NCBI GenBank assembly: GCA_030628225.1
Contig: DAOVRJ010000011.1
Location: forward strand, 1-18,478
DNA: 18,478 bases
Origin: Candidatus Zixiibacteriota bacterium
Lineage (GTDB): Bacteria > SM23-81
Direction: 5' to 3'
Translations under genes and position numbers: made by a program
Part shown: positions 2,584 to 18,478 of the stretch, piece after piece
How positions within the stretch are numbered: position 1 is the stretch's first letter
How the letters are laid out: each line of letters opens with the position of its first letter
Notes under the pieces: generated by a model
Databases searched by the model: none
What the model saw: the letters and a program-made list of their open reading frames with translations, nothing else
What the model was told of the DNA's origin: nothing

Positions 2584-2883
2584 TCCTGGGTTATAGTTAA
2601 GGGAGTTTAGAGAGTTGGGGAATTTGGGCGTCTTGAGCTCGGAACTGGGAACTCGGAGTGCGGAGCTCCCCCACACTCCATCCCAGATATTATTGTTTTT
2701 GCTTTTCAGTTCCGCGTTCCGAGTTCCGAACTCCGCGCTCGGTTCGCTCCACATTCTGAACTCACAACTCCGAACTCTCTCAACTCATTCAACGAACACG
2801 TGTTCTTCTATCAAACATCGAGGATTTGGGAGAGGGGGGCGGGGATCCAGAATCCAGTATCCAGCATCCAGAATCCAGTATCC
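2584..2883. repeat. Composite nested-palindrome repeat element A (7- and 9-nt periods)
   Basis: This fills the spacer after rimO. In order: a degenerate CCTGGGTTATAG start (2586 on); three 9-nt units beginning AGTT (2595-2621); four 7-nt units of CTCGGAA type (2638-2665); a central gap; five 7-nt units of the complementary AGTTCCG type (2708-2742); five ACTC-bearing 7-nt units (2753-2787) complementary to the AGTT units; then five ATCCAGN units and a partial one (2845-2883). The arms are concentric, so the whole can fold as one long imperfect stem. Open frames through it are repeat artefacts. No promoter could be assigned confidently inside it. Confidence 0.8.
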
Positions 2884-4482: not shown

Positions 4483-4492
4483 GGAAAGATTA

Positions 4493-4583
4493 GAGTTAGG
4501 CGAGTTGAGAGAGTTTTGAGAGTTCAGAGAGTTAGGCGAGTTGAGAGAGTTTTGAGAGTTCAGAGAGTTAGGCGAGTTGAGAG
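4493..4583 (+). repeat. 36-bp tandem repeat built of 9-nt AGTT units
   Basis: The unit beginning GAGTTAGGCGAGTTGAGAG starts at 4493, 4529 and 4565, giving two full 36-bp copies and a 19-nt third. Each 36-mer consists of four 9-nt units ending in AGTT. It begins 11 nt after the regulator's stop codon and is the left arm of composite element B. The two full copies look identical, which suggests recent expansion. Confidence 0.85.
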
Positions 4584-4836
4584 CATCTTGCGCTCGGAGC
4601 ATATTGAACTCGGAGCTCGGAGTGCCACCCCCCACCCCTTTAATTCGATCTTAATTTCTTTAGCTCCGAGTTCCACGTTCCGCATTCCGCGCTCAATAGG
4701 GTGGTAACTCTATAACTCAGTAAACTCATTAGAAAAGACAGAGACTCGGGGATCGGGAATCGTAAAACACATCATAAGTCCGTTTGTTTTACGAATCTCG
4801 AGTCTCGAATCTCGGCCTTTCACCAGTATCCAGTAT
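4584..4836. repeat. Composite nested-palindrome repeat element B
   Basis: This continues the 36-bp array with the same plan as element A. CTCGGAG heptamers (4609-4622) face AGCTCCG, AGTTCCA, CGTTCCG and CATTCCG (4662-4689). AACTC units at 8-9-nt spacing (about 4706-4728) complement the 9-nt AGTT units. A separate hairpin follows: GAGACTC-type heptamers (4741-4761) and CGTAAAACA (4761-4769) pair with TGTTTTACG (4785-4793) and three GAATCTC/GAGTCTC heptamers (4793-4813). Two CCAGTAT heptamers (4823-4836) end the element and match the ATCCAGN units of element A. Confidence 0.78.
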
Positions 4837-5163: not shown

Positions 5164-5610
5164 ATGGCGATCATGAGATGGAGACCGTGGGGAGACCTGC
5201 TTAGCGTCGAGGACGAGATGAATCAACTGTTCGGCGATTTCCTCGGCCGGGTCCCGGCAAGACGGGCTGAAACCACGCAGCGGTGGTGTCCAGCGGTAGA
5301 TATTTACGAGGACGAGGACAGCCTGCACATCGACGTGGAGATTCCGGGGATGAAGCAAGAGGAAATCAATGTCTCGCTGGAGAACAATGTGCTGTCTCTC
5401 AGAGGAGAGAAAAAGCAACAGGAGGAGGTCAAGGAGGTGAATTACCACCGCTGGGAGCGCAGACACGGCTCTTTCTCCAGGGCCTTCGAGCTGCCGGTGA
5501 CGGTCCAGTCGGACAAGATCAGCGCCTCGTATAAAAATGGGGTCTTGCGCGTCGTCCTCCCGAAAACAGAGGAGGTTAAACCGAAAGATATCCCCATCGA
5601 GGTGAAATAA
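5164..5610 (+). CDS. Small heat shock protein, Hsp20/alpha-crystallin family (first copy)
   Basis: The product is a 148-residue ATP-independent holdase that binds unfolding cytoplasmic proteins and hands them to DnaK. The N-terminal arm carries RWRPWGDL and EMNQLF. The alpha-crystallin domain spans about 41-133, with VEIPGM at 58-63 and the hallmark ASYKNGVL at 121-128. The C-terminal IPI motif (143-145), which docks between oligomer subunits, is present. The start is fixed by AAGGAGGTGA shortly upstream of the ATG. It is the first gene behind the sigma-54 promoter. The next gene encodes a close paralogue of identical length (about 74% identical by my manual count), so the pair is a tandem duplication. 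Confidence 0.96.
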   Translation: MAIMRWRPWGDLLSVEDEMNQLFGDFLGRVPARRAETTQRWCPAVDIYEDEDSLHIDVEIPGMKQEEINVSLENNVLSLRGEKKQQEEVKEVNYHRWERRHGSFSRAFELPVTVQSDKISASYKNGVLRVVLPKTEEVKPKDIPIEVK

Positions 5611-5672: not shown

Positions 5673-6119
5673 ATGGCGATCATGAGGTGGAGACCGTGGG
5701 GAGACCTGGTCAGCGTCGGGGACGAGATGAATCAACTGTTCGGCGACTTCTTCGACCGGGTCCCCGAGAGACGCCCGTGGGCTCTGAAGCGGTGGAGCCC
5801 GGCGGTGGATATCTCCGAGAACAAGGACAGCATCCATGTTGATGTGGAAATTCCGGGGATGAAAAAGGAGGACATCAGGGTTTCGCTGGAGAACAACGTG
5901 CTGATGCTCAAGGGCGAGAAAAAGCAGGAGCGGGAAATCAACGAACAGAACTGCCATCGCCTGGAGAGAAGGTACGGATCATTCGTAAGATCCTTCGAGC
6001 TGCCCATGCCCGTTCAGGCCGACAAGATCAAGGCCTCCTATAAAAACGGGGTCCTGCATGTCGAGCTGCCCAAGGCGGAAGAGGTTAAGCCCAAGGAGAT
6101 TCCCATCGAGGTGAAGTAA
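5673..6119 (+). CDS. Small heat shock protein, Hsp20/alpha-crystallin family (second copy)
   Basis: This is the second 148-residue Hsp20, colinear with the first without an indel. The alpha-crystallin domain (about 41-133) keeps VEIPGM and ASYKNGVL, and the C-terminal IPI motif is intact. Divergence is concentrated in residues 32-39 of the N-terminal arm, which in this family influences oligomer size and client choice. The start is supported by AGGAGGTGA upstream of the ATG. The 62-nt gap from the first copy has no clear promoter or terminator, so co-transcription from the sigma-54 promoter is likely. Mixed oligomers of the two paralogues are possible but not shown by sequence. Confidence 0.96.
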   Translation: MAIMRWRPWGDLVSVGDEMNQLFGDFFDRVPERRPWALKRWSPAVDISENKDSIHVDVEIPGMKKEDIRVSLENNVLMLKGEKKQEREINEQNCHRLERRYGSFVRSFELPMPVQADKIKASYKNGVLHVELPKAEEVKPKEIPIEVK

Positions 6120-8981: not shown

Positions 8982-10100
8982 ATGGCCAATAGAGATTACT
9001 ATAAAATACTGGGCGTCGGGGAAAAAGCCAGCCAGGAAAAGATCAAAAAAGCTCACCGGAAGCTGGCCAAAAAGTGTCATCCCGATCACAATCCCGGGGA
9101 CAAAGCGGCTGAGGAGAAGTTCAAGGAGATCTCTCATGCCTACGAGGTGCTCAGCGACCCCAAGAAAAGAGAGCAGTATGATCAGCTGCGCAAGTTCGCG
9201 CCCGGAGGGTTTCCGGGCTTTGGCTATGGAACGAACAAGGGCTTTCACACCCGGGGCTTCAAGCGCTCCCCGGGGGGTGCTTTCTCCTTCGAGGACCTGG
9301 GAGGATTCGGGGGCATAGGGGATATCTTCCGGGAGGTCTTCGATCTGGGCGGAACAACACGGCAGGCTAAATACGGTCCTCAAAAAGGAGAGGATCTCCG
9401 CTTCGAGATCAAGGTGCCCTTCGACCTGGCCATCTCCGGGGGAAAAACTCTCATCAAGGTGCCCAGGGAAGAGGTCTGTCCCGCCTGCTCCGGAACGGGA
9501 GCTCAGCCGGGATCCTCAACCTCGATCTGCCCGGACTGTCATGGTCAGGGTTTTATCTCCTTCGCTCAGGGAGGCTTCTCTGTGAACCGGCCATGCCCCC
9601 GATGCTATGGTCGTGGAACCATTATCCGGCAACCCTGCCGGAGCTGCGCCGGCCTTGGCCGGATTAAAAAAACGCGCAGCTTTTCCGTCAGGGTGCCGGC
9701 GGGCATCTCAGATGGGCGCAAAATTCGCCTGCGCAACCAGGGTCTTCCCGGAACCGGTGACGGTCCTCCAGGCGACATCATCCTCACTGTGCGCCTGGGA
9801 GAACACCGTTTCTTCCGCCGCAAAGGCCGGGACATTCTCTGCCAGGTGCCCATCAACATCGCCCAGGCAGTCTTGGGCACTCGCATTCGCGTGCGAACCA
9901 TCAACGGCCATGTGGTGGTGAAGATCCCCCCGGGGACCCAGCCGGGAACGGTTTTCCGTTTAAAAAGCAAGGGTTTGCGCTCCAACGGAAAACGGGGTGA
10001 TCAGCTGGTCAAGATCACGGTCAACATTCCCAAGCAGATCGGCGAACGGCAAACGAAACTGATGGAAGAGTTCGCCCGCCAGGGAGATCTGGCTCATTGA
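8982..10100 (+). CDS. dnaJ: Chaperone protein DnaJ (Hsp40, type I)
   Basis: The product is a 372-residue co-chaperone that stimulates DnaK ATP hydrolysis and delivers substrates. The J-domain (about 4-70) has HPD at 33-35. A Gly/Phe-rich region (about 74-125) follows. The zinc domain has four CxxCxGxG repeats: C166/C169, C183/C186, C205/C208 and C219/C222. The C-terminal substrate-binding region ends by about residue 360. All type I parts are present. The ATG at 8982 has only a weak GAAAGG upstream. The 187-nt spacer after grpE is AT-rich, with no promoter or terminator that I can call firmly, so dnaJ may be co-transcribed or have its own weak promoter. Confidence 0.97.
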
Positions 10101-18331: not shown

Positions 18332-18478
18332 GAGACTCGAGATTCGAGATTCGAGATTCGGAAGGGCTGATCTGCAATTGACTTATCTTGAACGCATTGA
18401 TAAACTGTCAACCTGTTTAATTAATCTCGCACTTCATTTTTCAATTTTCATTTTGCATTTTTCACTTTTCACTTTGCA
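18332..18478. repeat. Heptamer repeat blocks at the right edge
   Basis: GAGACTC followed by three GAGATTC units occupies 18332-18359 in exact 7-nt register. After about 70 nt of unique sequence, seven more heptamers fill 18430-18478 (CACTTCA, TTTTTCA, ATTTTCA, TTTTGCA and so on). The second block repeats the unit type found before rimO, and the first repeats the unit type of the element B hairpin. The array runs off the window. Confidence 0.82.

Follow-up and report, generated by a model that had tools for sequence, protein, structure and literature searches.

Between rimO and the gene for a sigma-54-type response regulator lies a spacer whose short repeats had been read, from the letters alone, as three concentric inverted layers that could fold into one very long stem. 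Is this locus, here called element A, such a structure, and is it peculiar to the place where it sits? The window (the whole stretch analysed, 18,478 nt) is contig 81 of a draft genome of 2.34 Mb in 306 contigs. Its features are listed below; both genes were named from the sequence-only reading and from inspection of their translations.

1095-1233, strand not assigned: hairpin of TGMAAAW/CATTTTT heptamers (H4), upstream of rimO
1239-2573: rimO
2574-2949: spacer holding element A, between rimO and the response regulator gene
2580-2594, + strand: left outer motif TATATCCTGGGTTAT, a degenerate single copy of the H2 heptamer family
2594-2622, + strand: left nonamer array of the GAGAGTTNN family (N+), TRF period 9
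2635-2669, + strand: left heptamer arm of five GARYKSG units (H1+)
2670-2705, + strand: core or loop of type A (CCCACACTCCATCCCAGATATTATTGTTTTTGCTTT)
2706-2740, - strand: right heptamer arm (H1-), inverted partner of 2635-2669
2753-2795, - strand: right AACTC nonamer-like array (N-), pairing with 2594-2622
2792-2844, + strand: linker CGAACACGTGTTCTTCTATCAAACATC...
2845-2883, - strand: ATCCAGN heptamer array (H2-), TRF period 7, dispersed in the genome
2950-4482: gene for a sigma-54-type response regulator
4492-4583, + strand: nonamer array of a second element, 36-nt period with 100% matches
4606-4694, + strand: second H1 hairpin, arms 4606-4626 and 4667-4694 around a type D core (4627-4666)
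4740-4815, + strand: hairpin adjacent to the second H1 hairpin, with GAGANTC (H3) arms and core TAAAACACATCATAAGTCCGTTTGTTTTA, read from the sequence

Folding of the spacer

The repeat coordinates first given for the spacer were confirmed by TRF, which placed arrays at 2595-2616 (period 9), 2638-2657 (period 7, CTCGGAA), 2708-2729 (AGTTCCG) and 2845-2883 (ATCCAGA). Inverted pairing is longest between 2635-2657 and 2711-2733 (87%) and between 2596-2619 and 2770-2793 (79%). The left outer motif is a degenerate ATACTGGATTATAGTT of the H2 (TGGATNC) family, which is intact at the equivalent position in other copies, where it takes the form ATACTGGATTATAG (L002, L005 and L008 were compared).

The spacer does fold better than shuffled sequence, as the three-layer proposal expected. 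Across 2580-2890 the + strand reaches an MFE of -109.6 (z -3.36), with 0/100 shuffles as good, and the - strand a z of -2.73, with 1/100 as good. When each layer was compared with dinucleotide shuffles, the duplex of the inner heptamer layer (-51.2 vs -24.5 kcal/mol in shuffles) was equalled in 0/1000, that of the middle nonamer layer (-24.8 vs -18.2) in 21/1000, which is marginal, and that of the outer layer, TGGGTTA-like against ATCCAG at 2842-2886 (-9.7 vs -9.6), in 423/1000, as expected by chance. A single long three-layer stem is rejected on this test. Clear pairing is limited to the inner arms of ~35 nt and does not run through all layers, and the spacer minus its inner hairpin folds no better than shuffles (63/300). 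All three layers are present as sequence, but in this copy a real inverted layer is formed by only one of them, or perhaps two. The suggestion that the layers are independent, and that a single duplication-inversion would not explain them, stands, since each layer is found elsewhere combined in other ways. When the right heptamer arm was turned to direct orientation, the MFE moved only from -109.6 to -103.7, because the heptamer units are nearly self-complementary; fold-energy scores of heptamer-repeat spacers say little about function.

A dispersed family of modular hairpins

Element A is one copy of a dispersed family and not a one-off three-layer structure. A BLAST search with the spacer as query found 92 matches in its own genome, about 25 of them strong and in unrelated contigs, and a heptamer pattern search gave 87 matches vs 3 for the reversed control. 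Among 80 contig stretches extracted from the genome, 25 inverted modules were found, with GARYKSG arms around cores of 35-67 nt that are mostly pyrimidine-rich and fall into at least four types. The type A core (~36 nt, non-repetitive) is near-invariant in 11 of the 25 while the arms vary; the other core types share mainly a C-rich start and a T-rich end. For 11 of the 25 modules a contig end is no more than about 200 nt away, which is where repeats that break assemblies should be found. In two contigs (L225 9757-10015 and L218 2802-2906) H1 hairpins have a right flank in common but differ in left flank and arm sequence, which may reflect a difference between strains, a join made in assembly or recombination at the element.

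The position of element A between rimO and the activator gene is not special, the same repeat family being found in many unrelated spacers. The two genes are unlinked in three relatives from the phylum, and the orthologous spacer was not found there; a search of genome contigs with the regulator returned remote relatives only.

The family is modular and polar. In 17/25 modules nonamers of the GAGAGTTNN family precede the heptamer arm on its left, where none is in reversed orientation, and a strict nonamer partner on the right is found in 3/25. The layer order of element A is thus recurrent elsewhere in its left half, nonamer before heptamer, but its full mirror order is limited to those three modules. 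The TGGAT motif is on the left in 13 of the 25 and ATCCA on the right in seven, with both present in five. Alternatives on the right side are a stretch rich in G, H3 or H4 heptamers, and a second run of heptamers that follows AAATCGTT. The linker of element A is common to L013 and partly to L019, and matches C79 2721-2801 at 86%. Within this family element A is one of the more symmetric copies, and full mirror order is not the rule.

Other repeats were observed in the window. A GC-rich repeat module (GGTAGCGGAGGACGGCGAGGCTGGCGG...GGGGGAAACTTCCCCC) occupies 951-1085 and also lies beside H1 hairpins in L011, L012, L016 and L017. At 660-880, downstream of the first gene, are a TTCGAGC array and another hairpin built of heptamers, with AGGATTCA in its arms and TTGAATCC as their partner. 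Two adjacent and similar Hsp20-like small heat-shock genes (5164-5610 and 5673-6119), apparently a tandem duplication, are followed by dnaK-, grpE- and dnaJ-like genes.

Occurrence in other genomes

The H1 core had no match in the same-family genome G001, where only H2 and left-edge pieces match, and the type A core had none in viral contigs. The heptamer pattern occurs in 9/241 genomes, where related units are scattered. The H1 hairpin itself seems restricted to this lineage. In the remote lineage G228, related heptamer hairpins are built of CGAGTTT units (104 pattern matches), and some lie in frame inside genes, namely prmC, a heavy-metal/copper P-type ATPase gene and a gene for a radical-SAM fusion protein, in its linker. 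These loci are L275 17946-18968 (insert 18337-18436), L277 8812-11418 (insert 9717-9792) and L279 7594-10194 (insert 9412-9486). The hairpin-bearing PrmC retains a full-length match to TIGR03534 (259 bits, against a cut-off of 199). Hairpins inside genes, as in Rickettsia palindromic elements, support the dispersal of heptamer-hairpin repeats.

Periodicity and polarity of the arrays

In an unselected sample of the genome, tandem arrays of period 7 number 17.4 per 100 kb and those of period 9 number 5.0, vs 0-1.3 for periods 4-6, 8, 10, 11 and 13. Unit classes were set by eye from the sequences before any sign test was made. Neighbouring arrays of the same class (heptamer classes and nonamers) are ordered + then - in 33 cases, - then + in two and on the same strand in 12. 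When the sign of the purine-rich strand was taken for the first and last arrays of spacers with at least two arrays, 42 spacers were +/-, two -/+ and 17 of the same sign at both ends. Much of this 42:2 bias arises because arrays are paired convergently, and among arrays without a same-class partner the polarity is weaker (34:18 overall, 30:10 within 150 nt of a gene and 15:3 for nonamers). The strongest bias among these orphan arrays is within 150 nt of a gene 3' end, with 19 sense and three antisense; within 150 nt of a 5' end 11 are antisense and seven sense, the arrays being few, and the spacers with a single array, also few, are divided 9:5. The genes used for these counts are simple greedy ORFs, which are approximate and in some cases spurious.

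One could imagine that unrelated heptamer and nonamer families obey a shared layout rule, by which the purine-rich strand reads away from the flanking genes and spacers are mirror-ordered and gene-bounding. We regard such a rule as unlikely. If true, it would imply common machinery, or selection, recognising purine-rich arrays of 7-9 nt at gene borders.

Pairing of the arms

Left arms pair with their own right arms (-37.9) and with the right arms of other copies (-38.2) alike (permutation P = 0.62; within type A, P = 0.97), and left-left (-25.9) and right-right (-18.3) pairings are weaker, which indicates that complementarity belongs to the family and not to the element. This lack of co-variation inside the element argues against strong selection on each stem. 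Element-specific compensatory evolution was rejected, as own and foreign arms pair equally both overall and within each core type.

The consensus stem has 15 pairs kept in nearly all copies, with two-sided changes in 2/15. The arm duplex is better on the canonical strand in 19/25 modules, with 75 G-U against 41 A-C; this strand bias is modest (two-sided binomial P of about 0.015, by hand) and the copies are not independent. The MFE of whole modules is better on the canonical strand in only 14/25, showing no strand preference. Modules lie 3' of a gene in the sense direction in 17/23 cases, again a modest excess among non-independent copies (two-sided binomial P of about 0.035, by hand); in this count L147 3467 was corrected by hand, its apparent upstream ORF being spurious and antisense to a thiolase-like gene. 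No intrinsic terminator, that is, a GC-rich stem directly followed by a T-run, was found in 2574-2949, and no Rfam family matched the window at gathering score. A role as a transcribed 3'-end hairpin is possible, if weakly supported, and would fit the strand asymmetry and the sense position after genes.

Origin of the family

Element A is probably a lineage-specific, non-autonomous, dispersed intergenic stem-loop repeat, with arms of tandem 7-nt GARYKSG units, a short conserved core and attached modules. The hairpin carries a nonamer GAGAGTTNN array on its 5' side and alternative heptamer or G-rich modules on its 3' side. Near-identical cores in unrelated spacers show that copies spread as ready-made polar units, by a transfer mechanism that we can only infer. 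Slippage of 7-nt units and exchange between copies may later alter the arms, as suggested by unit turnover without matching change in the partner arm. Copies would be retained in intergenic spacers, in most cases downstream of a stop codon and with their purine-rich arm in sense, and transcription in that direction would give a 3'-UTR hairpin, which might protect, terminate or do nothing. No common ends or fixed terminal inverted repeats were found in the flanks of the 25 copies, whose modules are variable, nor was a target-site duplication, an empty site or a cognate transposase encountered.

Such a lifecycle has to be weighed against selection for function. The hairpins could be 3'-UTR RNA structures, transcribed with the upstream gene to stabilise or end its mRNA and kept for that function, as the sense location of modules and of orphan arrays near gene 3' ends, the G-U excess with the better arm duplex on the canonical strand, and the retained 15-pair stem would all suggest. 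The scarcity of two-sided changes speaks against this, as do the equal pairing of own and foreign arms, the want of a terminator-like site in element A and of an Rfam family, and the several copies that sit past an obvious terminator. On balance, we doubt that selection of this kind accounts for the family.

Much less probable still is purely local slippage of the polymerase, in which heptamer arrays would arise and expand in place and the inverted layout would be a by-product of near self-complementarity. Period 7 is indeed over-represented in many of the genomes sampled, Bacteroidota included, the GAGCTCG and GAACTC/GAGTTC units are near palindromic, and the arm flip costs only 6 kcal/mol; yet a near-identical, non-repetitive core of 36 nt in eleven copies is beyond the reach of local slippage and largely refutes it, and the arm polarity is fixed at 33 to 2. 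Equally improbable is that the family is a classical MITE or REPIN mobilised by one of the genome's own transposases, for instance its Y1/RAYT proteins. Four Y1_Tnp proteins are present, and the copy number and inverted-repeat layout would suit them, but the family lacks fixed ends and hence any boundary from which to seek a target-site duplication, and the best Y1_Tnp is an IS200-like gene with CCCCCGCTCGTGAGCGGGGG ends of its own among H4 arrays. Two of the four Y1_Tnp loci were examined, and neither has H1 or nonamer arrays. The IS200-like TnpA gene with CCCCCGCTCGTGAGCGGGGG ends is found at L259 1203-2146, amid H4 (CATTTTT) heptamer arrays.

Comparison with known repeats

Heptamers are the commonest longer tandem repeat reported in many bacterial genomes, and we know of no settled reason for their prevalence. 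Convergent intergenic heptamers of the Xanthomonas type are a poorly understood kind of repeat. The present genome offers one case in which unrelated heptamer families share polarity, position and stem-loop build. Its conserved cores show that heptamer families spread as whole units and do not only slip in place, and the origin of heptamer arrays thereby becomes testable by comparison of strains.

The STRR heptanucleotide repeats of cyanobacteria are 7-nt direct repeats, mostly intergenic and numerous in each genome. The TAACTGA repeats of Beggiatoaceae are likewise 7-nt and mostly intergenic, and are almost never inverted, with one case in the BOGUAY genome (PMC4679880). The family of element A resembles both in its 7-nt direct repeats, intergenic position and high number per genome, but, unlike the TAACTGA arrays, is inverted and has a conserved core, which is not described for them (PMC4679880). 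As far as the cited accounts portray REP/BIME and MITEs, the family is like them dispersed, non-coding, palindromic, intergenic and assembled into mosaic composites (PMC2817692, PMC10969869); it differs in its variable-length tandem heptamer arms, and neither a cognate transposase nor terminal repeats with target duplication were seen. Rickettsia palindromic elements resemble the G228 hairpins in their behaviour inside genes (PMC10969869), whereas the copies in the window are intergenic; they are not described as heptamer-built (PMC10969869), unlike the family of element A.

The closest likeness is to the GGGAATC heptamers of Xanthomonas, which are intergenic and genome-wide, with 70-75 pairs in convergent inverted orientation in each genome (Rehm et al. 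2015, PMC4692102). Those heptamers prefer the sense strand immediately downstream of stop codons and the antisense strand upstream of starts, and are mostly transcribed (PMC4692102). The arrays described here share the 7-nt tandem units, the intergenic position, the convergent neighbours and the sense bias near gene 3' ends. They differ in that at least five unit families, four heptamer and one nonamer, are combined within spacers in regular order, and in the conserved core between the arms. Unlike the G-quadruplex subclass in Xanthomonas, the GARYKSG unit is degenerate and has no regular G-tracts, giving mostly GG, with GGG only across some unit junctions. The family of element A is thus a heptamer relative of the Xanthomonas convergent pairs and not of their G-quadruplex subclass.
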